Shown here in pieces: positions 3,338-24,111 of a DNA stretch of 31,943 nucleotides; the stretch's first letter is position 1; each line of letters opens with the position of its first letter. The stretch is from a virus. Under the pieces are notes generated by a model. That model was not told the DNA's origin. It did not search any database and saw only the letters and a list, made by a program, of their open reading frames with translations. The stretch is from positions 1 to 31,943 of the IMG/VR virus record IMGVR_UViG_3300042691_035467; one strand, given 5' to 3'. The position numbers and the translations under genes were made by a program.

Positions 3338-4606
3338 ATGGCGTTTTATCCGGTAACTTCTAATTATGGTTCTTCCATTGGTGGTATTTGTAATAATCCA
3401 CCGATAACGTTTTACGTTCAAAATACAAACGTATTAAGTGTAGGTAGTGTTATTTATACTGATATTACAGGAAGTGATACTTTCAAAAATACTTGGTTTT
3501 ATATTACAGAACCAACCGATTATAATTTTAATAAGGTTTTTGAAACTGATGGTACCGGTGAGATAATCCAATTAGGTGTCCCATCCGACTTTGGTGTTCC
3601 TGTTTTTGGAATAATATATGCTGGCGATAGTTGTTGTCATACCGGTAAAGGTCCTTATTATTATGATGCTTCGCAAATATTTGATCTTGGTCTAAACATT
3701 TATGATGACAAATGTTTAACAATACTATCCACCGATGTTACAGACCAAAAAGTGTGGATACCTTCTTATTCCTTCACTATAAGTTATACTATCACAACTG
3801 TTGGTGGTTCTGTGGTTGATATAACTGAAGACGGTGAGTGTATTGTAACTGACCCATACCTATTTGAATTAGGTAGTTTGGTAAGCCCTTGTGACACATC
3901 CCAAACATATTATGTTAATTATTTTCCGGATATCAACCCAATACAAGTTGGAACGACACTATGGGTGGTACCACAACTTAATGGTTGTGATGTAACAAGT
4001 GAAATGACTTTAACTGATGGTTATGATCCAAATATCTATTATGATTTGGATGGTGGTGGTGTGGTAACCGCAATAAATACCTGTGCCGTTACACCAACCC
4101 CCACTCCGACCCCAACAGAAACACCAACACCTACCGTTACACAAACACCTACTAATACAACCACACCGACATCATCTGTTACTAAAACTCCAACACCAAC
4201 ACCGACAGTTACACCAACATCAAGTGGTGGTCCTGTAACGACTCCCACACCAACACCAACACCGACAAGAACACCGGGTGAACAATTTTGTTATACTTGG
4301 GCAAACGCGGAACAAATTTGGGACACAAGTGAATTAACATGGGCGGAATTTTGTATTATCATTCCAATTGTTACCCCTGCGATTAGTGGTGGTGGATCAA
4401 TGGCGATGGTCCGAGATAGATTGAGAAAATTACCCGAAGAAGAGAAAAAAATCATCATTGGATTATTCACAAGATTGGAAGTTGATGAGATTACTTTTGA
4501 AAAAAGAGAGAACAAACAAAAGAACACAAAAGTAAAAATTAAAATTTCTGATGTGGATGTTACAATCAAAGAGAGTAAAAAGGTAAATGTGAAGATAATT
4601 ATATAA
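3338..4606 (+). CDS. Thr-Pro-repeat surface/virion protein
   Basis: This is a 422-aa protein. Residues 1-250 are beta-rich and hold several Cys residues. Residues 252-313 are a low-complexity Thr-Pro linker. Residues 314-345 hold Trp-rich WANAEQIWDTSELTWAEF. The last 70 residues are charged, starting near RLRKLPEEEKK, and are rich in Lys and Val. The layout of globular head, extended stalk and small C-terminal module is common in phage decoration, fibre or adhesin proteins, but I recognise no named family. It is divergent from the tail fibre-like gene and 11 nt ahead of the next virion-type gene, so it probably belongs to the same structural group. There is no signal peptide. The role in surface binding is inferred. 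Confidence 0.7.
   Translation: MAFYPVTSNYGSSIGGICNNPPITFYVQNTNVLSVGSVIYTDITGSDTFKNTWFYITEPTDYNFNKVFETDGTGEIIQLGVPSDFGVPVFGIIYAGDSCCHTGKGPYYYDASQIFDLGLNIYDDKCLTILSTDVTDQKVWIPSYSFTISYTITTVGGSVVDITEDGECIVTDPYLFELGSLVSPCDTSQTYYVNYFPDINPIQVGTTLWVVPQLNGCDVTSEMTLTDGYDPNIYYDLDGGGVVTAINTCAVTPTPTPTPTETPTPTVTQTPTNTTTPTSSVTKTPTPTPTVTPTSSGGPVTTPTPTPTPTRTPGEQFCYTWANAEQIWDTSELTWAEFCIIIPIVTPAISGGGSMAMVRDRLRKLPEEEKKIIIGLFTRLEVDEITFEKRENKQKNTKVKIKISDVDVTIKESKKVNVKIII
4091..4276 (+). repeat. In-frame hexanucleotide repeat coding Thr-Pro
   Basis: About 186 bp of degenerate ACN-CCN hexamers encode an alternating Thr-Pro stretch broken by short ETP, VTQ, NTT and SSGGPV segments. Third-position variation shows that the protein pattern is maintained although the DNA repeat has decayed. 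The repeat also opens a false minus-strand frame. Confidence 0.85.
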
Positions 4607-4617
4607 AAAGAGATATC

Positions 4618-5154
4618 ATGGCTTATAAATTATTTTCAGATAAAGCAAACAAATTTAGTTGTAACATACAAGTTGAGGGAACCTCATTCGCAAATTCTAA
4701 ATTAAGAATGATCCTTGAAACGGATGAATTGAATTATATGTTCACAGGTTATATTCATGAAACGGGTGTTTGTGATGTTAATATTCCAAAGACTAAACAT
4801 TTTCTTCCCGAAGGAACTGTAGGTAACATGAGATTGGAAGTCATTGCCGATGATGTTTATTTTGAACCTTGGTCATCAGACTTCGTTGTTGCAACCGAAA
4901 AGAAAGTTGCAGTTGTAGTTCAAGAACAACAAGAGGATGAAAAACCAAAGGTTAGAGTTGAAGTATTCCAACAACCTGAAGAAAAGAAGGTGGTTAAAGA
5001 ATCCCCAAAACCTGTGGTTACCAAAGAAGAACCTGTGATTGAAGAAAAAGTTGTTGAGAAACCAAAGATCAAAGAATCCGTGGTTAAGAAAGAAAGAACT
5101 CTTAAATTTACTCAGGAACAAATCCGTCAGTTAATGAAACAAGGTCTTATTTAA
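4618..5154 (+). CDS. Virion-type protein with Lys/Glu-rich tail
   Basis: This 178-aa protein starts MAYKLFSDKANKFSCNIQVE. Residues 1-95 look like a compact beta domain. Residues 96-160 are a Lys/Glu/Val/Pro-rich, probably extended segment. The end, FTQEQIRQLMKQGLI, looks like a short amphipathic helix and may be a docking peptide. I recognise no named family. It follows the Thr-Pro protein gene by 11 nt on the same strand, so the two are probably co-transcribed. Its stop codon overlaps the stop of the convergent metalloprotease gene by 3-4 nt. A structural or assembly role is inferred from the neighbours. Confidence 0.65.
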   Translation: MAYKLFSDKANKFSCNIQVEGTSFANSKLRMILETDELNYMFTGYIHETGVCDVNIPKTKHFLPEGTVGNMRLEVIADDVYFEPWSSDFVVATEKKVAVVVQEQQEDEKPKVRVEVFQQPEEKKVVKESPKPVVTKEEPVIEEKVVEKPKIKESVVKKERTLKFTQEQIRQLMKQGLI

Positions 5155-6250: not shown

Positions 6251-7303
6251 TCATAATTTCATAAAAGTTGGTTTGATCATCTTCCATATGATATGGTCAT
6301 AGGCTTTTCCATCCCACATATTGAATAGAACCCCTTGAAGTGGTCTTGGTCTTTGCAACACATAATCAACATATTCCCTTCTTGTGGGTTCGGATGTTTT
6401 TTCACCATTTTTACCATATCTGAAAGTAACGTAATGACTTAAACAAGTATCATAAATGTCATTATAATCATTCTTTAATTGATTTACATATACGTCAACT
6501 TTCTTGTAGAACTCATCAGGAACATCTTTAAGGATGGTCATTATGTCATCACCTTTGGATAAACATTCCCATACTGAAGTGGTGGATAATCCGGTCATAA
6601 CCTTATGTAACCTGATATACTCAACACCTTTAACCTTCATTCGGTCACCATTGGAGAACTTAACCACAAAACCCTCAGCATCATCCTTAACCATTCCCTT
6701 CAATAAAGAATAATCGGTGATACCATCATACTTCTTAACAACATCCAACGGACCAACATATTCTTGGAATTCATCGGAACGTAAGGTATCCAAAGAAAAC
6801 TCATCACCGGTTTCGGTATCAACAATTCCAAGTAAAACCAAACGTTCTTCACCGTAATCAACAACGATCCTGTTCCAAGGTGCGATATATTCAAACAAGT
6901 AAGTGTTTCTTCCACCCTCAAATACCTTATCCAAATTATTTTCAAAGAAGTATTTGGTTGCAGCAATTGCTTGATCAGAGGTGAATGAACCACGAGTACA
7001 TAACACCCACTCACTTTGATAAATGAATGCGATGATTAAACTACCATCCATTTTTTCATAAACTTCAAAGTCAGGGGTTGCGGTATGTCTTCCTTCCTCA
7101 ATGTTGAAGAACTTACGGAATGGTCTCGCAACCACATCACCATTAGAGTTGGTAACCAAACCTCGAGTTTGTAGAGTTACGTCATCAAAAAGTCCGTCAT
7201 ACTGCACCTTCTCGGTATAATTCCATATGGTAAGGTCTAAAGTTGGATGTACTTGATTATAAAGTAACCCATTGTCCAAATAAGATTGTAGAGTTGTGTT
7301 CAT
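6251..7303 (-). CDS. RNA ligase, T4 Rnl1 family
   Basis: This 350-aa protein is close to the 374 aa of T4 RnlA. Nucleotidyltransferase motif I is EKMDGSL with the AMP-accepting Lys at K84. Further motifs are a conserved FEYIAPWNRIVV block (residues 137-148), motif IV EGFVVKF (210-216) and motif V RMKVKG (K223 and K225). The enzyme joins 3'-OH and 5'-phosphate RNA ends through an adenylated intermediate and in T4 reseals tRNAs cut by host anticodon nucleases. A PNK-like kinase, a phosphoesterase and a CCA-adding enzyme lie on the same strand upstream, which suits an RNA-repair pathway. It ends just before the hairpin controlling the metalloprotease gene. No Shine-Dalgarno is visible. Confidence 0.92.
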   Translation of the reverse strand: MNTTLQSYLDNGLLYNQVHPTLDLTIWNYTEKVQYDGLFDDVTLQTRGLVTNSNGDVVARPFRKFFNIEEGRHTATPDFEVYEKMDGSLIIAFIYQSEWVLCTRGSFTSDQAIAATKYFFENNLDKVFEGGRNTYLFEYIAPWNRIVVDYGEERLVLLGIVDTETGDEFSLDTLRSDEFQEYVGPLDVVKKYDGITDYSLLKGMVKDDAEGFVVKFSNGDRMKVKGVEYIRLHKVMTGLSTTSVWECLSKGDDIMTILKDVPDEFYKKVDVYVNQLKNDYNDIYDTCLSHYVTFRYGKNGEKTSEPTRREYVDYVLQRPRPLQGVLFNMWDGKAYDHIIWKMIKPTFMKL

Positions 7304-7321: not shown

Positions 7322-7591
7322 TTAATCTTTAAGTTTCATCACTTCTTCTAAAAATTGTTCCACAGAGTATTTTTTGAAGTCAATATTCACATCACCGGTA
7401 TTCACACCAGTAGGAATACAGATATTCTCAAAAACCTCAACAATTCTTTCATCATTCCTATCCAACATAAATTCCCACATGATGTAAATGATAGAATCAA
7501 TATGGGAATTTATTTCTCTTGGATTGGTTATGGTATAGTCGTTATTTTCTATTTTTTTTTTAATTATTTCATAATACTGTTGTAAGTTCAT
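7322..7591 (-). CDS. Small unknown protein
   Basis: This 89-aa, mainly helical, acidic protein starts MNLQQYYEIIKKKIENN. I recognise no family. A GAGGTG sequence just upstream of the ATG can act as ribosome binding site. The start overlaps the end of the large restriction-like gene by 23 nt, suggesting translational coupling to it, and the stop lies 18 nt ahead of the RNA ligase start. A partner or immunity role for the large protein would be a guess. Confidence 0.6.
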   Translation of the reverse strand: MNLQQYYEIIKKKIENNDYTITNPREINSHIDSIIYIMWEFMLDRNDERIVEVFENICIPTGVNTGDVNIDFKKYSVEQFLEEVMKLKD

Positions 7592-10500
7592 TTACCACCT
7601 CGACATTTAACTTAGGTTTATCCTTTTTGTCATATGTCATGACAAGGTTTCGTTCCTCATCAGTTAAATTAAAATAATCGAACAGTTGTTCATCAGTCCA
7701 TTCTCTATCAAAGGGAACCATTGGGATCCACTTACAAGTGTCTGGTTTAATATGTTGTGATATTTTCCTTAATGATAATAAACAATTAGCAAATTTTGTG
7801 GAAATATAAGAAAGTAAAGATTTAGCTTCTGTTTCATTATTAACTTCAAAAACATCATAACTCTGATTACAAACTTCATTTGGATATCCTATAAATGAAT
7901 TACCAAATTTACCCAACATTTTATTGGAACCGGATGCTTCTGCAGTTACTACTTTCCATTTACTTAAATCAACGGATTTTTTAACATCAGTTCTTTTAAT
8001 CCATTTTTCTAATCCATTTACTTGACTAACATAACATTTGATATAAGAATCATCAACTTTAACTTTTGATAATCTATTATCGTTTGTTTTTATCCCAGAA
8101 TATGATTGTCCTTTACAAATTGTATCTAATCCAACTCTTCCTGATAATTTACTCAATATTGAATAGTATTTTGGATTCACAATTATATCAAATTTAGATA
8201 AATCAACTAAATTACCATTGAACACACAATTTCCATTATATTCTTCATCAATTAAAGAATATGAAATACCACCCTTTATTTCAACACCATTACCAAAAAC
8301 CAAAGTTGGGTCTTCTATATGACAGATTTCTTTTAAGTTTTTATTTGAAAGCATCATGTTTCTAAAATTATCCAATCCTTTACCACCAGCAAACCATCTA
8401 CTTGGGTTAATTGAGATAACCCTTTTAGAATCCTTTATAGCCTTTTCAATGAAAAGATTATAAAGAGGTTTAGCCGAGCCTCGTTTAGTTTTTAATTCTT
8501 CCTGATAAGGACTATTCATACAAATCAAATCAAATTTCTCAACCCCAAAGGTTTCTTTAATATTTAATGTCAAATAATCACCCCTGTAGAAGTTCATTTT
8601 GTATTTGTTTTCAGGATCGAATAATTGTAGATATATGAATAGGTTTTTACTTTGATATTCATTAACACATATGATTTCTTCTAATATCCATTTTAATCGT
8701 TCCTCTGAGTCCGGTATTTCGTCAGATAATCCATTCATGAATTTATCAATTAAAACAACAGAGTAATTTCCAATTCCCGCACATGGGTCTAAAACCTTAA
8801 CATCTTTTCTTTTCCAAAAAGAATCCTCCATCAAATTTAATTGGTCTTCCACACAACCTGGCTTTCCGTATAATGGTGTGAACACCTCACCTAACAACCT
8901 TTTCTCGGTATTAGAAGGTTTTAAATAACTATCAATCAATTTTAATACTTCGGGTAACATCATATTTATAATATTAGGATTTTTCCTCATATTATCAAAT
9001 ATAAATATCACTTTTCTATTGAACTCGAATAGTTTTTTATTGATGTTATCCTTATCAAAAACGTTATCATAAATATACTTAATAGTGTCTAAATCAACAT
9101 TTTCCGCATCATTAATACCCAATAATAATGTGTCTAAATACGCTTGTTTTTGTTCAGGATGGTTAGAAATAACTTCAAAATTTTTATCAATATCGTCATG
9201 CTCAAATCTATTGAATATTGTCAGAAGCATCGTCTTATCCAACAATGCTTTTGCAATCTCAATAAGTTTATTAATATCAATCTCGGAAGGTTTATCTTTA
9301 TTTGATGGTGATAGGTTTTTAGTGATCTTACTCTTACCCTTATCGATCCCATCATCATTAAGTTTTGTTTCAGAAGATGATGTTCCATCTTTTAAACCGA
9401 AACTTAACAAGGATTTAGAAATATCATCATCAGTTAATTTATCAAAATTAATCGTATTTTGATAATCAAACCTTATTCGTTTGCTTATGGTATTTAGGTA
9501 TTCGGTAAAGAACGTATTAACATCGACAGGTATGAACTCACCATCAATTCGGTTATAGATATTAACACATTCCACCCACTCTTTAATTTGATCTTTTAAT
9601 TCGTTGCCGGTATATTTTGAAATAATGGTTTGATATTCACCCATCATTTCAAACGATCTTGCAGCATTAAAATCAACAACCCAACATTTTTCTTTACCTT
9701 CTCTAGGTGATTGACATCTGAATGATGCTTGAATGTATTTGTCCATTGACAACCAATCATTCATCATCATCACCATATCACAATCTTCCAATGTGATACC
9801 CATCGTTAATTGGTCAACGGCAATGATTAAACTTCTCTTACTTTTTGAAGTGAATTCTCCTCTAACTTTATTGATTAACATTTTTGAAGAGTTAATCTCA
9901 CTATTTGTTATGTGGATATCAAAATCTTTATAATATTCATTGTTCAGTAAAAGTTCTTTTAATTTTTCTTGTACTGAAATATTAGGGACAAATAAAAGAA
10001 CCGATCTAACATCAGAGAAATCTCCTTGATTTTTTAATGGGTATTTTGTACCCAACTTATCACGACCACAAACCGAACGGTCACCAATTAATCTTTTGAA
10101 CAGAAATTCAATATCCGATTGATAATAAAAATTACCATTCTCAATTCGGAAAAACTTATCAAATTTGAATTGTTCCTCATCTGAAAAATACTTTAAGTTA
10201 GATTTCTCATTTTTAGAAAGATTCCACAATAAGAAGTTTATATCGGCATAAGGGTATTGATCGGGAAATTGTAATTTCATCTTCTTTTCATCTGACAATC
10301 CGTAAATATGAGTATGTTCCTTAGCGAATCTCCCAACTAAAAGGTTCTTACTCGGTGTTGCGGATAGACCTAATAATCTCTCATAATTAACTTTTGTCAA
10401 AAACTCGGTGGTTTTTTCCGTTTCAACACCGTGATGACACTCATCGATGATAAGTAGATCGATTTTAGTATGTATAAGATTCTTGAATTTATCTTTACCA

Positions 10501-11234
10501 AAAACTTCATCCCCACCTTTAATATCCTGTAATGATAAGAAAATAATTCTCTTTTCATTTAATTCAAAATCCACTTCAGAAATATTTTCTTTATCTATAA
10601 TACTATAATCCATGAATCCTTGATGAGTATCAAAGAATCCAATCCATTGGTAATTAACCGTTGGTTGATTGGTTACAAACAATACATTATCGTATCTGTT
10701 TTCTTGGATGTGTTTTCCTGTTATGAATGTTTTCCCACTTCTACATTTGTGGAATATCAAACATTTCTTATCATCGGAATCGAATCTTTCATTGATAAAT
10801 TTTGACGCTTCTTTTTGATGGGGTAATAACGATAATATTTTCTTAAAGGAATCCGTATTGTTTAATACTATACTTAGAACGTTTCTGAAGATCTTAATAG
10901 GATCACCAACTAACATAAACCACTCCTTTCCGTTTTTTACGAGGTAACCTAACTTTGTTAGAATATCATGAACTTCCCCCTCCACAACATGAAGAGGTTT
11001 GTCTGTTAATTTTGAAATGTCAATGGAGTCAATAAAATAAGGATCATCAATTGAGAATGCACTTTTTGATGTTTTACTTCTACTGTGCATGTTTTTAGTT
11101 AAACCAATTTTGTAATAACCTTTTTGTGCCTCACTATCCACCGATGCTAGATAAATAAACTTACCATCGGTTAAGGGTAGATTTTTTAAATCAAGTTTTT
11201 CCATACTATCAATAATAAAAAAAGGATTTGACAT
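7569..11234 (-). CDS. GIY-YIG nuclease / SF2 helicase / N6-adenine DNA methyltransferase single-chain protein (Type ISP-like)
   Basis: This is a 1221-aa protein, numbered from ATG 11234. Residues 24-111 match the T5orf172-type GIY-YIG nuclease: IYLAS, YYKIGLTKN (40-48), VEGEVHDIL, then NGKEWFML. Residues about 138-540 are an SF2 helicase/translocase: Walker A HKCRSGKT (162-169), DECH (264-267), SATP (291-294), DQLTMGITL (474-482) and motif VI Q..FR....R (502-511). Residues about 650-780 are helical and resemble a coupler. The methyltransferase starts with GEVFTP (782-787), then SAM motif I DPCAGIGN (816-823) and motif IV NSPY (907-910). The C-terminal 250 residues would be target recognition. 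The order matches Type ISP restriction enzymes such as LlaBIII, with GIY-YIG in place of the Mrr-like nuclease. Likely role: cutting unmodified competitor or host DNA while methylating its own. The start could be Met11 (11204), or TTG at 11240. Confidence 0.85.
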   Translation of the reverse strand: MSNPFFIIDSMEKLDLKNLPLTDGKFIYLASVDSEAQKGYYKIGLTKNMHSRSKTSKSAFSIDDPYFIDSIDISKLTDKPLHVVEGEVHDILTKLGYLVKNGKEWFMLVGDPIKIFRNVLSIVLNNTDSFKKILSLLPHQKEASKFINERFDSDDKKCLIFHKCRSGKTFITGKHIQENRYDNVLFVTNQPTVNYQWIGFFDTHQGFMDYSIIDKENISEVDFELNEKRIIFLSLQDIKGGDEVFGKDKFKNLIHTKIDLLIIDECHHGVETEKTTEFLTKVNYERLLGLSATPSKNLLVGRFAKEHTHIYGLSDEKKMKLQFPDQYPYADINFLLWNLSKNEKSNLKYFSDEEQFKFDKFFRIENGNFYYQSDIEFLFKRLIGDRSVCGRDKLGTKYPLKNQGDFSDVRSVLLFVPNISVQEKLKELLLNNEYYKDFDIHITNSEINSSKMLINKVRGEFTSKSKRSLIIAVDQLTMGITLEDCDMVMMMNDWLSMDKYIQASFRCQSPREGKEKCWVVDFNAARSFEMMGEYQTIISKYTGNELKDQIKEWVECVNIYNRIDGEFIPVDVNTFFTEYLNTISKRIRFDYQNTINFDKLTDDDISKSLLSFGLKDGTSSSETKLNDDGIDKGKSKITKNLSPSNKDKPSEIDINKLIEIAKALLDKTMLLTIFNRFEHDDIDKNFEVISNHPEQKQAYLDTLLLGINDAENVDLDTIKYIYDNVFDKDNINKKLFEFNRKVIFIFDNMRKNPNIINMMLPEVLKLIDSYLKPSNTEKRLLGEVFTPLYGKPGCVEDQLNLMEDSFWKRKDVKVLDPCAGIGNYSVVLIDKFMNGLSDEIPDSEERLKWILEEIICVNEYQSKNLFIYLQLFDPENKYKMNFYRGDYLTLNIKETFGVEKFDLICMNSPYQEELKTKRGSAKPLYNLFIEKAIKDSKRVISINPSRWFAGGKGLDNFRNMMLSNKNLKEICHIEDPTLVFGNGVEIKGGISYSLIDEEYNGNCVFNGNLVDLSKFDIIVNPKYYSILSKLSGRVGLDTICKGQSYSGIKTNDNRLSKVKVDDSYIKCYVSQVNGLEKWIKRTDVKKSVDLSKWKVVTAEASGSNKMLGKFGNSFIGYPNEVCNQSYDVFEVNNETEAKSLLSYISTKFANCLLSLRKISQHIKPDTCKWIPMVPFDREWTDEQLFDYFNLTDEERNLVMTYDKKDKPKLNVEVVNELTTVL

Positions 11235-11250
11235 AATCAAATCCTTTTTT
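11217..11250 (-). terminator. Intrinsic terminator-like hairpin overlapping the start of the large restriction-like gene
   Basis: GGATTTGA and TCAAATCC form a perfect 8-bp stem around a 5-nt loop, flanked by A7 on the left and T6 on the right (plus strand), so it can act on either strand. On the minus strand it lies just after the 11268-11717 gene, and its loop contains the candidate ATG (11234) of the nuclease-helicase-methyltransferase gene, with AAGGA in the stem 7 nt before that ATG. It may be a simple terminator (with the true start at 11204) or an RBS-masking leader. Confidence 0.6.
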
Positions 11251-12127: not shown

Positions 12128-12862
12128 TTATTTTGTTTCTAATGTTGGTTTTAACCAAAGAATGTTCTCTTTGAAGATATAATTCCTAAGAGCAGGAAAC
12201 TCGTGTAAGGTTTTGAGTGTCTTAATCGTGTCGTGTTTGAAACACTTATACAACTCCTCACGGATTCTCTCAACAGACACCACGGGCATTTTGGTTTCAT
12301 AATCATAATCTTGCATAACACCATCCATATAAGGTGAAATGAAAAACCCTTTTGTAATACAAAACCTGATCGCTCTTAAAATTCTCAACGGATCATCATC
12401 AAATGTGATCTTGCAATCTATTGGTGTTTTAAGATAACCTTTTCTTAAATGTTCCAAACCTCCGAAGTAATCAATGATATTACCATCACCATCTTTGGCT
12501 AGAGCATTTAAGGTAAAATCCCGTCTTTCCAAATCATCGTATAATGTTCCAGGAACCACAAGTGGTGTCCTTGTTCCGGGAATATATCCGATTTCCTTTC
12601 TTGCCATAACAAAATCTGCAACACCCGAATATTTGTGTCCTTGAGGAAACTTCGCTCTAATTGTGAAACAATCCGATGTCACCAAGAAGATTTCAAACCC
12701 CTCTTCTTTGAGGTACCCCTCAAGAATGTTAAACATAGAATGTGCCGAATTCACATCTTTCAATAAATCCTCACCGGGTACCGCAACATAATCAACGTCT
12801 TTGGACTCAATCTCCAAGATCTCATCTCTGACTTTTCCGCCTACCTCATAAAACTTGAACAT
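12128..12862 (-). CDS. CCA-adding enzyme / tRNA nucleotidyltransferase
   Basis: This 244-aa protein belongs to the class II poly(A) polymerase/CCA-adding family. Motifs seen are VGGKVRDEIL (7-16), the catalytic KDVDY (D22 and D24), DLERRDFTLNALA and DDPLRILRAIRF. These make up the head and neck domains that bind tRNA 3' ends and add C, C and A. It is shorter than most bacterial enzymes (about 400 aa) and lacks the usual C-terminal body and tail, so it is a compact phage form. It sits between a terminator and the YqeY-like gene. Together with the RNA ligase, kinase and phosphoesterase on this strand it would complete tRNA end repair. Confidence 0.9.
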   Translation of the reverse strand: MFKFYEVGGKVRDEILEIESKDVDYVAVPGEDLLKDVNSAHSMFNILEGYLKEEGFEIFLVTSDCFTIRAKFPQGHKYSGVADFVMARKEIGYIPGTRTPLVVPGTLYDDLERRDFTLNALAKDGDGNIIDYFGGLEHLRKGYLKTPIDCKITFDDDPLRILRAIRFCITKGFFISPYMDGVMQDYDYETKMPVVSVERIREELYKCFKHDTIKTLKTLHEFPALRNYIFKENILWLKPTLETK

Positions 12863-14314: not shown

Positions 14315-14683
14315 TTATAGTTTAACCTCGAACCTGTTTTTCATAATATCTAACTTATCTTGGGGTACATTGTGGGTATTTGTTCCACCGTGACGATTTT
14401 CCACAATTAACGAATGAACTCTATATCCGTAGGTTTCCGCCAATTTGTAATAATCTTCCATCTCCCATTCTTGGGTAAATGTGTTTGATACTACAACAGG
14501 TGAATGTTCGTATTTCATTGCGAACTCAATCTCTTCTTTGCACCATTTGTGTGCGTTTTTGATTTCACTTGGTTTGAAATTGTAATTTCCATCACTATCC
14601 ACAAAATACATATCCGCTTCTTTGTGGCAATAATCTTTATCACCAACTAACATTTTTGCTAATGTTGACTTACCACTTCCTGG
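14315..14683 (-). pseudogene. P-loop PNK/N4BP2-like kinase, 3' part of a split gene
   Basis: These 122 codons begin at the P-loop, PGSGKSTLAKMLVGD, and continue to the stop. Other conserved parts are KEADMYF, NAHKWCKEEIEFAM, VVVSNTFTQEWEM, YYKLAETYGYRVHS and THNVPQDKLDIM. This order matches phage and eukaryotic PNK-like and NEDD4-binding-protein-2-like kinases, which phosphorylate nucleic-acid 5' ends or related substrates. The natural beginning, MKELFLLRGI, lies 1.04 kb away at 15757-15728, cut off by an insert. The codon directly upstream in frame is TAG. A shorter start at Met 14653 would lack the P-loop. As it stands the gene is probably inactive unless spliced, read through or restored. 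Confidence 0.8.
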
Positions 14684-14749
14684 CTAAGGAACCCCCCTCA
14701 AGAGAATCAACTCTTTTACTGGGGGGTTCGTGTTTTTTTTAATATCCAT
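14684..14749 (-). other. Diverged duplicate of the kinase N-terminal coding sequence, ending in TAG
   Basis: The frame ATG (14749) to TAG (14686-14684) reads MDIKKNTNPPVKELILLRGVP. Its KELILLRGVP part matches the expected kinase start MKELFLLRGI(P), with mostly synonymous DNA differences (GAG/GAA, TTG/TTA, AGG/CGT). It abuts the P-loop part in the same frame; only TAG-CCA separates it from GGA-AGT-GGT-AAG. It looks like a replacement 5' end carried by the insert. Removing 6 nt would give a normal GVPGSGKS P-loop. Confidence 0.75.
14689..14740 (+). terminator. Strong GC hairpin with T8 at the left edge of the insert
   Basis: GAACCCCCC (14689-14697) pairs with GGGGGGTTC (14721-14729), with an inner AAGAG/CTCTT stem, followed by GTG and eight T. 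Read on the plus strand it is a textbook intrinsic terminator. It precedes the endonuclease gene and would block plus-strand read-through into it. On the minus strand the same bases encode the duplicated kinase start. Confidence 0.7.
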
Positions 14750-14822
14750 ACTATTTATTGTTAGGGGTTTACTTGGTTTAGACTACAAAGATAATTAAAT
14801 AAAAAACAAAAAACAAACTTTA

Positions 14823-15710
14823 ATGAGCAAATATACTAGAAATTGTCCATTGTGTAATAAAGAACTTACATATTCTAGCAAATACAACTACCAAAAAGCG
14901 AAACTAAAGAAAAGTAAATGTAAAAGTTGTGGAATAAAAGAATCAATCACAGATGAAAGACGTGAAAAAATGAGAGATCGAGTTGAGGGTAGAAATAATC
15001 CTATGTTTGGTATGAAAGGCGAATTAAATCCGTTCTTTGGTAAAAAACACACTGAAGAAACAAAAATTAAAATTGTTATAAATAGAGACATGTCTGTTTA
15101 TCGTAGTGATGAGTTTAGGAAAAAAATGAGTGAGGTAACAAAGGGTGAAAATAATCCTATGTTTGGTCGTTCATTTTATGATGTATGGGTTGAACGATAT
15201 GGGAAACAACTCGCTGATGAAAAAATGAAAAAGTACAGAGAAACTCAATCTATAAATAATTCTGGTACTAAAAATAATATGTTTGGTAAACCATCACCAA
15301 TAGGTTCAGGAAATGGATGGTCGGGTTGGTATAAAGGGTGGTATTTTAGAAGTTTAAAAGAGTTAACTTATATGATTAAAGTCATAGAAAGATATAATTT
15401 AGAATGGGAAAGTGCCGAAACAAAAGATTTAACTATAAGATATTTAGACTATAATTTAATTGAGAGGTCATATACTGCCGATTTTATCGTTAATAATAGA
15501 TATATGGTTGAGATTAAACCTAAGAAGTTATGGGATAGTCCTCTTATAAAATTAAAAACGGGTGCGGCTATTGAATTTTGTAATTTAAGAGGTCTTAAAT
15601 ATAAGTTAATTGATATTGATAGGTTATCAAATCAAGAAATTATAACGTTATTGGATAACAACTTAATTAAGTTTATTGATAGATATCATAATATGTTAAA
15701 CAACCCTTAA
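14823..15710 (+). CDS. NUMOD3-containing homing endonuclease with PD-(D/E)XK-type C-terminus
   Basis: This is a 295-aa protein. A four-Cys zinc motif, CPLC (8-11) and CKSC (33-36), lies at the N-terminus. NUMOD3-type DNA-binding repeats follow: NNPMFGMKGELNPFFGKKHTE (58-77), NNPMFGRS (110-117) and NNMFGKPSP (151-159). The C-terminal half has YFRSLKELTYM (174-184) and TADFIVNN...MVEIKPKK with D220, E230 and K232, the Asp...Glu-x-Lys core of PD-(D/E)XK nucleases. Such enzymes cut an intronless or insert-free allele and spread by repair. The gene lies antisense inside the split kinase gene, 18 nt from one junction. Its AT-rich codons differ from the neighbours, a sign of transfer. It is a full-length frame with no decay seen. 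Confidence 0.85.
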   Translation: MSKYTRNCPLCNKELTYSSKYNYQKAKLKKSKCKSCGIKESITDERREKMRDRVEGRNNPMFGMKGELNPFFGKKHTEETKIKIVINRDMSVYRSDEFRKKMSEVTKGENNPMFGRSFYDVWVERYGKQLADEKMKKYRETQSINNSGTKNNMFGKPSPIGSGNGWSGWYKGWYFRSLKELTYMIKVIERYNLEWESAETKDLTIRYLDYNLIERSYTADFIVNNRYMVEIKPKKLWDSPLIKLKTGAAIEFCNLRGLKYKLIDIDRLSNQEIITLLDNNLIKFIDRYHNMLNNP

Positions 15711-15727
15711 ATAAATCCCAAAATAGA

Positions 15728-15757
15728 TATTCCACGTAATAAAAATAATTCTTTCAT
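15728..15757 (-). pseudogene. 5' fragment of the split kinase gene
   Basis: ATG 15757 opens MKELFLLRGI, the strand-1 sequence that precedes the P-loop in PNK-like kinases. It then runs into insert sequence and stops at TAA (15707-15709). The ATG overlaps the stop of the 59-aa gene upstream as ATGA, showing it was the natural start of the kinase in this operon. Confidence 0.8.
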
Positions 15758-21612: not shown

Positions 21613-22740
21613 ATGGGTAAATTTATTATTACCGAATCTGAGAAGAATTATATTAAAAGTCTTTATTCTAAATTTTTGTTTGAACAAGAATCAAATGATG
21701 GTAGATTGAGAATAGATTTCGGTGCGGATTTTCAACAAGGTAAATATGATGTTAAAAGTTTGAATGTTAATGACGTTTATAAGAAATTAGAACCACTGAA
21801 AAAATTCTATACGGATAATGATGGTGGTGACATTAAATTATATATTGAATCTAGTGAATCTAACTCCACACCACCTCCCGGTATGAAAGACGGTGATTTA
21901 TCAAAAAATAGATTACAAACCATTAAATCGGTTATAACAACTTGGTTAAATACAAGTATTCCTAATTGGAAAGAAAATTCTCAAATTGAAGAATACATTG
22001 TAAAACCTGAAGAAAGACAAGAAAAATATGTGAAGGGTGTTGATAAGGCAACGGATCCTAAATATTTGGCAGACCAATACGTTTATTTGGAAGTTGGTGT
22101 TGATAATACACTAAAACCATTACAAACAAAAACTCGTACACTACCGAATAAGGGTGGTAGAGGATTTGATTATGTACCGCAAGGTAATAAAATTAGTAAT
22201 TTTGGTGGGGATATATTACGATTAGATTGTAACTCATCATATGAAGTCACAGGTGGTGGTGTTGAGGTTGGTAAGCCACCATTTATCGGATTTGATCGTA
22301 AAATTGATGTTAGTGAGTATAATAAGAATTTAGAAATATATTTTAATTCACTAAGAATTCCTGATAGATTTATAATTACAAATGCCGAGTCAAATACTGT
22401 TTTATTGGATACAGGATATATGGGTTCTCCTAATTGGGTAGAGTTTGTACAATTTGTTAATCTTGCTCAAAAATATCAAAATCAAAACGCGTTTAATGGT
22501 GTTAACGTTGGAGATATTAGGATAAACCAAGACTATGGTCAACAACTTCAAGGAAGTCTAAGAAACCTTCTTAACGCTAAAAACCCCAAAACGATTAAGT
22601 TTGATAATAACACTTCTGATGATCACGAGATTGGTTTTAATATTAGTAACTTATCGGGTGTTAAAACTGTTAGATTAGTTGCGTATTCACCATTAAAAAA
22701 CACATTGTTTAAACTAAAATTATCTTGTCCAAGCAAATGA
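21613..22740 (+). CDS. Virion-type protein with shared N-terminal leader
   Basis: The protein has 375 aa from ATG 21613. The start is set by the leader MGKFIITESEKNYIKSLYSK, which aligns with MGKFVISESERREILALHES of the metalloprotease, and by the promoter spacing. The leader ends in FLFEQES, an (L/I)xE-type site. The rest is a beta-rich, Asn-rich protein with an early DFGADFQQGKYD segment, an ERQEKYVKGVDKATDPKY segment and a C-terminal jelly-roll-like part. The middle region resembles OmpA-like or peptidoglycan-proximal proteins only vaguely, so I give no function. It precedes the tandem paralogue pair with an ATGA overlap. Confidence 0.65.
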   Translation: MGKFIITESEKNYIKSLYSKFLFEQESNDGRLRIDFGADFQQGKYDVKSLNVNDVYKKLEPLKKFYTDNDGGDIKLYIESSESNSTPPPGMKDGDLSKNRLQTIKSVITTWLNTSIPNWKENSQIEEYIVKPEERQEKYVKGVDKATDPKYLADQYVYLEVGVDNTLKPLQTKTRTLPNKGGRGFDYVPQGNKISNFGGDILRLDCNSSYEVTGGGVEVGKPPFIGFDRKIDVSEYNKNLEIYFNSLRIPDRFIITNAESNTVLLDTGYMGSPNWVEFVQFVNLAQKYQNQNAFNGVNVGDIRINQDYGQQLQGSLRNLLNAKNPKTIKFDNNTSDDHEIGFNISNLSGVKTVRLVAYSPLKNTLFKLKLSCPSK

Positions 22741-23105
22741 AATTCGTAATCTCAGAAAATCAATATAAAAAACTTCAGATATTATCTGAAGGTCAAAACG
22801 TTAAAGAATTTATTAAAAACTTATTAAGTTTTGACGATAATACTATAAAAAGGATTCAAGATATTTTAGTTAAGTCGAATTTTTCAATTGATTCTTTGAA
22901 ATCTATGTTTCCTAAAGTATTAACACCGGAATTAGTATCAAAATTAGACAGTTTGAATGTTAATCAAGCAATCAATTTAGTTAGAGCGTTGTATAATGTT
23001 TTTATTAAAAACAAATATAATTTATCTGAACAAACTTCGGACGATTATGAAAAAGAATTGGTTAGTGCAATTAACAAAGTTAAACTACTTCAAAAAAATA
23101 AATTA
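22737..23105 (+). repeat. Duplicated coding segment, copy 1
   Basis: This segment aligns without gaps at an offset of 685 bp to 23422-23790. By my alignment the 123 encoded residues differ at 15 positions. It arose by tandem gene duplication; the membrane halves have diverged much more. Confidence 0.85.
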
Positions 23106-23402
23106 CCTAAAGATGAATTTAAACGTAACGTTACTGGGTTTGATTTACCTTTAGGTATTGCGCTTTCAATTGCACTTGGTTTAGCCGCGGGTTTGGGTAG
23201 CGGTGTGTTATTGACAGGTCTCGCTACTTTTGGTGTCTGTATTATTGTTTCTTTGATTATAAAGTATCTTCCAGCATTAATAAGGTATTTTAAAGTTAAA
23301 AGGGACTTAAAATATAATTTAGCGTCGTTGGAAAAAGATTTAGAAACATATAAAACAGGTAATCAAAATCAAAACTCAGTTGATATTCTAACAAAAAATT
23401 AA
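22737..23402 (+). CDS. Leader-bearing membrane protein, paralogue A
   Basis: The protein has 221 aa from the ATG that overlaps the previous stop (ATGA); an ATG 12 nt upstream is also in frame but lies inside the previous gene. The leader MKFVISENQYKKLQILSEG matches the SE-type leaders. A helical domain runs to residue 123. Residues about 138-178 form two hydrophobic helices (LGIALSIALGLAAGLGSGVL, ATFGVCIIVSLIIKYL), followed by a charged tail. It is a tandem duplicate of the next gene. It is probably virion-carried and membrane-interacting, for example during DNA ejection; this is inference. Confidence 0.7.
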   Translation: MKFVISENQYKKLQILSEGQNVKEFIKNLLSFDDNTIKRIQDILVKSNFSIDSLKSMFPKVLTPELVSKLDSLNVNQAINLVRALYNVFIKNKYNLSEQTSDDYEKELVSAINKVKLLQKNKLPKDEFKRNVTGFDLPLGIALSIALGLAAGLGSGVLLTGLATFGVCIIVSLIIKYLPALIRYFKVKRDLKYNLASLEKDLETYKTGNQNQNSVDILTKN

Positions 23403-23421: not shown

Positions 23422-23790
23422 ATGAAACTCATAATCTCAGAAAATCAATATAAAAAACTTCAGGTATTATCTGAAGGTCAAAACGTTAAAGAATTTATTA
23501 AAAACTTATTAAGTTTTGATGATAATACTATAAAAAGTATTCAGGATACTCTAATTAAATCAAATTTTTCAATTGATTCTTTGAAATCTATGTTTCCTAA
23601 AGTATTAACACCGGAATTAGTGTCATTTTTAAATGGTTTGAATATTAATCAGGCTATCAATTTAGTTAGAGCTTTGTATAATGTTTTTATTAAAAATAAA
23701 TATAATTTATCTGAACAAACTGTGGATGATTATGAAAAAGAATTGGTTAATATAATTAATAAAATTAAACAACTTCAAAAAAATAAATTA
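23422..23790 (+). repeat. Duplicated coding segment, copy 2
   Basis: This is the second copy of the tandem duplication described at 22737-23105. Confidence 0.85.
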
Positions 23791-24111
23791 TCAACAACCA
23801 AAAGCGAAATCAAACGTAACCTTAGTAATGATATTCGGGGGGCAACAAAAGTAACCGCGATGTTCACTGTTATTATTGGTGCCGCATCAGGAATTGTTTT
23901 AGGTGCGGGTGCTGGCCTGTTGGTAGGTCTCTCAACGTTAGCCATTTGTATGATTGTGTATTTGATTATAGCTACTCTCCCCCCATTGATAAAATATTTT
24001 AAAGGTAATAGAAACTTAAAACATAATTTATCAACATTTGAAAAAGATTTGGAAACATATAGAGCGGGTAGTCAAAATCAAAATTCAGTTAATGGTATGA
24101 CAAAAAATTAA
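23422..24111 (+). CDS. Leader-bearing membrane protein, paralogue B
   Basis: This 229-aa protein starts MKLIISENQYKKLQVLSEG. The first 123 residues are nearly those of paralogue A. The membrane part differs (TAMFTVIIGAASGIVLGAGAGLLVGL, AICMIVYLIIATLPPLI), but the tail converges again (LEKDLETY / FEKDLETY and a final TKN). Conserved ends with a changed membrane core suggest relaxed or diversifying selection on the hydrophobic part only. Its stop overlaps the convergent thioesterase stop by 4 nt. Confidence 0.7.
   Translation: MKLIISENQYKKLQVLSEGQNVKEFIKNLLSFDDNTIKSIQDTLIKSNFSIDSLKSMFPKVLTPELVSFLNGLNINQAINLVRALYNVFIKNKYNLSEQTVDDYEKELVNIINKIKQLQKNKLSTTKSEIKRNLSNDIRGATKVTAMFTVIIGAASGIVLGAGAGLLVGLSTLAICMIVYLIIATLPPLIKYFKGNRNLKHNLSTFEKDLETYRAGSQNQNSVNGMTKN

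Follow-up and report, generated by a model that had tools for sequence, protein, structure and literature searches.

A putative hairpin-driven stop-hop associated with homing endonuclease genes at the P-loop of viral kinase and helicase genes

Organisation of the split kinase gene

The present analysis concerns a P-loop kinase gene split by a nuclease gene in a virus DNA of 31,943 nucleotides (nt), IMG/VR record IMGVR_UViG_3300042691_035467 (the whole stretch is hereafter referred to as the window), and the small element at the junction, consisting of a hairpin, a proline codon, an in-frame stop and one further codon, at which the ribosome is proposed to hop. The feature region occupies positions 14315-15757, with the kinase encoded on the minus strand. 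The native kinase start ATGAAAGAATTATTTTTATTACGTGGAATA (MKELFLLRGI; 15757-15728, minus strand) is left as a stub upstream of the insert and agrees with MKELFLLRGLPGSGKS, the start found in relatives without an interruption (L003 and L012, for example), labels of this form denoting contigs from viral metagenome scans (IMG/VR). On the plus strand, antisense to the kinase, the insert carries an open reading frame (ORF) of 295 amino acids (14823-15710) with zinc-ribbon cysteines, NUMOD3 repeats and a TnsA-like PD-(D/E)XK domain, as assigned with Pfam. A possible promoter of the re-supplied kinase start lies at 14817-14786 on the minus strand and comprises TTTG (14817-14814), 20 nt and TATCTTTG (14793-14786); by its consensus it is putatively of the Bacteroidota type. 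TAnnTTTG is found at the equivalent position, between the nuclease and the new ATG, in most elements of the antisense type.

The re-supplied 5' end of the kinase is a short frame of 21 codons, MDIKKNTNPPVKELILLRGVP (hereafter ORF1; 14749-14687, minus strand), which runs from an ATG at 14749-14747 up to the putative take-off codon. Folding of this duplicated start predicts a hairpin (14728-14690, minus strand), in which AACCCCCC (14728-14721) pairs with GGGGGGTT (14697-14690) to form the outer stem, with an apical stem above it. The base of the hairpin directly abuts the take-off codon CCT (Pro; 14689-14687), which is followed by the in-frame stop TAG proposed to be hopped over (14686-14684) and by the candidate landing codon CCA (14683-14681), which would not be read a second time. 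The remainder of the kinase, GSGKSTLAK... (14680-14315, minus strand), matches the P-loop kinase family AAA_33 in Pfam. Counted from 14683, it opens with CCAGGAAGTGGTAAG (CCA-GGA-AGT-GGT-AAG, PGSGKS...), so that the second start reads ATG...GTAAAAGAGTTGATTCTCTTGAGGGGGGTTCCT and then TAG CCA GGA AGT GGT AAG at the downstream junction. An independent IMG/VR contig, 3300031951_000294 (L002/L069), has the same sequence over the whole insert, which makes an assembly error there unlikely.

A preliminary description, made from the letters of the window alone, had listed the stub, the kinase remainder, the antisense NUMOD3 nuclease, the second ATG start and the TAG-CCA, all of which are present, and had observed correctly that the stub joined to the CCA yields a perfect P-loop. 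It had also described the second start as a diverged duplicate with mostly synonymous changes. The duplicate is real; the changes are not to be read as drift, since they build the hairpin, overlooked in that description, which ends exactly at the proline codon preceding the stop.

Distribution of the elements

Viral contigs were searched at the DNA level with the pattern GG-VT-CC-TAR-YYA-GG...GK[ST], which identified 33 contigs, every one of them with a hairpin and, past the stop, an open P-loop gene; a rough estimate of the information content of the pattern gives about 3 chance matches. Applied to 257 Gb of genomes from bacteria and archaea, this pattern matched 3 times, and each match lacked both the hairpin and an open frame. 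A chance origin of the junction is ruled out by the pattern scans and this genome control. In a relaxed scan the stop position was left free as TRR, with TGG serving as the sense control, and the next codon as NNN. It yielded 63 contigs in which TAA, TAG and TGA are all used, the single spurious match being L159 (TGG ATG, without a hairpin). A variable-gap scan covering 4-30 nt, restricted to AGAGGGGT, returned exactly two contigs with one extra codon each (CCG TAA ATA TCA GGA and CCT TGA AGA CCG GGT), so that within this restriction only +9 turned up besides the standard gap. Take-off codons other than proline (first base not C) were sought in a scan restricted to AGAGGG, hence not exhaustive, which gave two copies of one chance match. 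With a broader P-loop pattern, elements were found in a gene unrelated to the kinase, a UvrD-family helicase (FGPP-stop-[L/P]-G[ST]GKTT; more than 10 contigs), where the hairpin, GGGCCGAAGA...TCTTCGGCCC, is very unlike that of the kinases.

The collected loci (2.0 Mb) were scanned for stems immediately preceding an in-frame stop, which identified 62 distinct P-loop elements; the 44 other matches were mostly from GC-rich loci, and none directly preceded a P-loop. An earlier, stricter version on fewer loci gave 71 matches to the element and 2 others. Hop elements in other types of genes were rejected, as the collected loci contained chance-like matches alone. All the elements found come from uncultured phages, and each sits where a kinase or helicase gene encodes its ATP-binding loop.

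A search with the kinase remainder, in which the junction was not required, gave 67 loci, most of them with an uninterrupted start of the MKELFLLRGLPGSGKS type. Besides L002, it revealed three divergent elements: L008, L040 and L041, of which L041 was also recovered as L042. In these, RG[VL]P is separated from the P-loop by a stop (CCG TAA CCA, CCG TAA TTA and CCG TAA CTA, respectively), and a strong inverted repeat ends just 5' of the CCN. In L041 the nuclease, again antisense, is 54% identical to that of the window; the stub, ATGAGCGGAATATTATTTTG (MSGILF), derives from the native start of that locus, and the N-terminus is likewise supplied anew in recoded form. L041/L102 is the closest homologous insert with a stub, and a search for native-start stubs recognised them in the window and in L102/L041 only. 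This insert backs the earlier view of a nuclease cassette that interrupts the gene while providing a new 5' end for it, and the counterpart of the re-supplied KELILLRGVP is not missing from homologous inserts. Intact, element-free relatives, which the preliminary description had proposed for comparison, exist in both main kinase families, 38 of them in the family named here ITRPSQ. Among the INPHARED cultured phages, homologues of the kinase and the helicase do exist; no homologue of the nuclease and no element was found there.

The same loci bear on the possibility that the interruption is repaired in the RNA, either by excision of 6 or 9 nt from the mRNA before translation or by removal of the entire insert as an intron. 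The perfect P-loop obtained on joining the stub to the CCA in the window would fit such a repair. However, L008 and L040 have neither an insert nor a stub upstream and no adjoining nuclease, and retain the hairpin and the stop alone; an intron of 6 nt is not known; and the conserved CCN and YYN around the stop form the signature of a tRNA and not of splicing. The scan for group I and II introns suggested in the preliminary description gave no match to Rfam models in the window. RNA-level repair is accordingly considered highly improbable, and an intron is rejected on the lack of an Rfam match and the existence of elements without a homing endonuclease gene.

Selection on the gene past the stop

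The ratio of non-synonymous to synonymous substitution rates (dN/dS) past the stop, estimated from 45 pairs, has a median of 0.14 and a maximum of 0.25, indicating purifying selection. The P-loop is intact right after the stop also in L002, L008, L040 and L041, which were found without requiring the junction. The preliminary description had held that the restoration of the gene is spoilt by the TAG-CCA, and had offered a scar or a broken gene among its readings. A dead kinase in these phages would agree with the truncation of the frame after 21 codons, but it is exceedingly improbable in view of the selection downstream, the intact P-loop and the recurrence of the stop site in 62 distinct elements with covarying hairpins. 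The stop and one codon are kept in all of these, with all three stop codons represented, and are part of a conserved junction and not a scar.

The hairpin and ORF1

By minimum free energy, the kinase hairpins are far more stable than 200 synonymous recodings of the same peptide, with a mean z of -6.1 (n=48); the helicase elements, taken with two additional kinase elements, had a mean z of -3.4 in the same comparison. Alignment of 46 kinase elements shows five registers, with the outer stem starting at the nt that directly precedes the take-off codon; in four elements of the ITRPSQ family it starts one nt earlier. In the largest group (register 47) the stem of 8 base pairs is paired in 168 of 168 cells (100%), four of the eight pairs are altered on both sides, and the covariation score was reached by none of 500 shuffles. 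The apical helix ends 12 nt upstream of the take-off codon in 30 of the 46 elements and at 10-13 nt in 39. In the ITRPSQ family the peptide before the stop is the native peptide of the 38 intact relatives and essentially the codons alone differ; the change therefore serves the RNA and not the protein.

The length of ORF1 is 20-23 codons for most of the kinase elements; several of the helicase elements have one of 9-12. So short a frame with a hairpin near the 5' end would also suit a regulatory leader: ORF1 would encode the leader peptide, and expression of the gene behind it would depend on termination and reinitiation at an internal start, with no hopping. Reinitiation at the next ATG of the window (14653) would, however, drop the P-loop, whose codons directly past the stop remain intact; the codon after the stop (CTA, CCA, CCG, CTT and others) is not a start codon; and the pre-stop codons of the ITRPSQ elements still specify the peptide that the intact gene has at this place. 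A leader of this kind is thus very unlikely.

Codons at the junction

The order at the junction is conserved: the hairpin, CCN (Pro), a stop, YYN and then the GGN of an intact Walker A P-loop. The take-off codon is CCN in all 62 elements (CCT in 30, CCG in 25 and CCA in 7) and the stop is TAA in 38, TGA in 17 and TAG in 7. YYN stands directly before GG in 61 of the 62 (CTA, CCA, CCG, CTT, CTG, TCA, CCT, TTA). Skipping 6 nt in 60 elements, and 9 nt in the other two, restores the P-loop in every case; in the +9 variants (TAA ATA TCA GG and TGA AGA CCG GG) YYN occurs solely at the codon preceding GG. The YYA and TAAYYN patterns partly imposed YYN, but it was not imposed in the relaxed and variable-gap scans, and in these two, with the skipped part free, it is still present in all the real elements except one.

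Stop-codon readthrough, in which the stop is read as an amino acid to give RGVP-X-P-GSGKS, shares with hopping an unchanged frame across the stop. Two phages, those of L100 and L120, each have one stop-anticodon tRNA call by ARAGORN (tta at L237:3458-3535 and cta at L239:8462-8538, respectively), these being possibly real suppressors or degraded tRNAs. Yet readthrough would leave two extra residues (three in L166 and L167) between G and GSGK, breaking the GxxxxGK[ST] that skipping alone restores, and would give no explanation for the conservation of YYN. All three stop codons are in use, the element-bearing phages end their other genes with ordinary stops, and no stop-reading tRNA was found in the remaining tRNA arrays examined. 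Readthrough is accordingly judged very unlikely.

The codon usage was also considered from the side of hopping. The first two positions of the landing codon match those of the take-off codon exactly in CCN-type landings and by G.U wobble only in the rest, and the landing codon could re-pair with tRNA-Pro (anticodon UGG). CCA is rarer at the take-off codon of the kinase set (3 of 48) than among downstream codons (55 of 113; p 7e-8) and CCG is enriched there (p 2e-6), both values being uncorrected for relatedness; the landing codons of the kinases favour A in the third position. This combination is expected if tRNA-Pro(UGG) moves from a codon that it reads by wobble to one where pairing at the third position is better. 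tRNA-Pro(UGG) is encoded by four element-bearing phages, that of L153 having an additional call for tRNA-Pro(AGG), and no tRNA-Pro with a GGG or CGG anticodon occurs in the tRNA arrays of these phages that were examined.

The associated nucleases

The nuclease of the window has three NUMOD3 stretches (Pfam E 1e-16) and a TnsA-like PD-(D/E)XK match with an E-value of 4e-5, slightly short of the Pfam cut-off. Residues D220, E230 and K232 are invariant in 29 relatives (D...ExK). Its domains are modelled with confidence (predicted local distance difference test score of 87.7), and the nearest structures are TnsA (E 0.019) and I-Bth0305I, with weak global scores. The sequence thus has the NUMOD3 and D...ExK features of a homing endonuclease, and the pattern of presence and absence among relatives fits site-specific cleavage and gene conversion by such an enzyme.

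More than half of the kinase elements are directly preceded by a relative of this nuclease (44-61% identical), which is encoded antisense to the kinase in the short-kinase family and in the sense orientation in L138 and the ITRPSQ family. Among the UvrD-helicase elements, an HNH_3 nuclease gene terminates some 50 nt before the element in roughly half of the cases and is absent from the others. NUMOD3/PD-(D/E)XK enzymes in kinases, HNH enzymes in helicases and elements without either imply that one stop-hop accompanies two unrelated nucleases, or none. The HNH_3 gene, unrelated to the nuclease of the window, is seen upstream of the helicase elements L247, L250, L253, L256, L258 and L261 (up to 530 nt).

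Further nuclease relatives are found 20-70 nt upstream of the starts of varied P-loop genes (thymidylate-kinase-like and others), with no stop, in L074, L075, L076, L078, L087, L091-L094 and L098, at about 4001-4950 in most. The occurrence of these relatives before many P-loop genes suggests that the family favours P-loop coding sequence.

Proposed mechanism

Taken together, the comparative evidence argues with good confidence for a cassette in which a homing endonuclease gene is combined with a programmed in-frame ribosomal stop-hop, driven by the hairpin, that keeps the invaded gene working; the hairpin-CCN-stop-YYN signal very probably makes the ribosome jump the stop. The nuclease would have entered the P-loop codons of the kinase by homing or transposition and split the gene, the cassette supplying a promoter-like sequence, a new start codon and an N-terminus recoded as a hairpin that ends at a proline codon and a stop. 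The ribosome would read ORF1 from the new ATG to the CCT, with the stop entering the A site at a time when the top of the hairpin, some 12 nt further 5', could already be folded outside the ribosome. Zippering of the outer 8 base pairs would pull the mRNA, so that the peptidyl-tRNA-Pro detaches from the CCT, passes the TAG and re-pairs at the CCA (CTA, CCG, TTA, TCA and others in relatives), and decoding would restart at GGA. The predicted product is RGVP-GSGKS with a perfect Walker A loop. The recoded and interrupted site would presumably no longer be a target of the nuclease, so that restoration of the gene and self-protection would arrive as one unit, the element possibly shielding the site from cleavage as well.

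Several points weigh against this explanation. Many kinase elements contain a Shine-Dalgarno-like AGGGGG, 3 nt 5' of the take-off codon, that could act as their stimulator; as the sole stimulator it is ruled out because the helicase elements, which keep the hairpin, have no such run. The landing codon ACA of L138 would pair poorly with tRNA-Pro, and landing at CTA or CTT needs a G.U wobble at the middle codon position. The conservation of YYN, counted without correction for relatedness, may partly reflect descent from the native CCN codon. Mobility is assumed for the kinases with no nearby nuclease. The explanation does not account for the avoidance of release factors, there being no long nascent-peptide signal of the kind known from T4 gene 60.

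Comparison with known systems

The +1 frameshift site of prfB is AGGGGGUAUCUUUGA. Many kinase elements resemble it in having a purine-rich, Shine-Dalgarno-like run 3 nt before a weak P-site codon and a stop, but the landing is at +6 in frame and not at +1, and the hairpin is kept in helicase elements without such a run. Mitochondrial endonuclease inserts of the Allomyces atp6 type carry a duplicated gene end, and the elements of the window and of L041/L102 likewise replace the gene end that they sever; they differ in supplying the 5' and not the 3' end, in occurring in phages and in the putative stop-hop at the join.

In the model for T4 gene 60, the top of a 5' stem is folded outside the exit channel and the closing of its lower pairs pulls the mRNA (PMC5009743). 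The present elements share with it a 5' stem-loop upstream of the take-off site, the completion of which has been proposed to pull the mRNA (PMC5009743), and, as in T4 gene 60/mobA, a take-off codon followed by a stop (62 of 62 here), probable re-pairing at a landing codon and an association with a gene-splitting homing endonuclease (PMC2988022), the bypassed sequence having been proposed to protect against cleavage. They are unlike gene 60 in that the gap between take-off and landing codon is 3 nt (6 nt in two cases) and in frame, as against about 47-50 nt; proline and not glycine codons are used; the genes are P-loop kinases and helicases and not a topoisomerase; and dozens of versions exist with two nuclease families. 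ORF1, with 9-23 codons in most elements, is too short for a nascent-peptide signal about 25-30 amino acids from the P site, and the 46-amino-acid signal of the T4 type is therefore lacking. No take-off stem-loop containing the take-off codon and the stop, as in gene 60, was found in the elements. Since both this stem-loop and the distant nascent-peptide signal are lacking, the elements are not classified as members of the gene 60 type.

Synthetic stop-hops in Escherichia coli reporters, in which 9 nt (codon-stop-codon) encode one amino acid with a movement of +6, are attributed to Weiss et al. (1987) in a later review (PMC5009743). The elements show the same arrangement and inferred movement, but are natural, conserved and provided with a covarying hairpin. 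According to the same 2016 review of recoding, no natural in-frame stop-hop was known and counterparts of gene 60 with shorter distances had long been expected (PMC5009743). No later report of one was found in the open-access literature searched, subscription journals and preprints being largely outside the search. In Aeh1, nrdA is split by mobE within an essential catalytic region and the two polypeptides assemble (PMC2988022); the position of the insertion is comparable here, but a single polypeptide would be restored by means of the re-supplied 5' end and the hop.

With moderate confidence, the elements may be regarded as a natural class of in-frame stop-hop that needs only an mRNA hairpin as its motor and occurs in mobile P-loop cassettes of at least two unrelated nuclease families. 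If true, bypassing would be not a curiosity of T4 but a general partner of homing endonucleases, acquired repeatedly. Such elements would explain how a homing endonuclease can reside at no cost in the catalytic loop of a gene that seems to be needed, and the approximately 60 comparative examples, which vary in take-off, stop and landing codons, gap and hairpin, make the mechanism directly testable. Gene callers overlook such genes, calling the start too late so that the P-loop is lost; the findings further suggest hopping as a possible mode of expression for some of the phage genes whose annotation reads broken or split.

Neighbouring genes in the window

Proteins resembling RNA ligases by eye are encoded near the kinase in the window (6251-7303) and in L041 (4829-5953), and in cultured phages a similar kinase adjoins an annotated RNA ligase. 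On account of this neighbourhood the kinase may be the nucleic-acid 5'-kinase of an RNA repair pair. A gene with the tRNA-nucleotidyltransferase/poly(A)-polymerase head domain (PF01743) lies at 12128-12862, and the window has no tRNA genes. By eye, the protein of 1223 amino acids encoded at 7569-11240 appears to join a superfamily 2 helicase to an adenine methyltransferase with an NSPY motif, an arrangement like that of type ISP restriction enzymes. Two adjacent genes at 22725-23402 and 23422-24111 (MSKQMKFVISENQYKKLQILSEGQNVKEF... and MKLIISENQYKKLQVLSEGQNVKEF...) are clearly duplicated.
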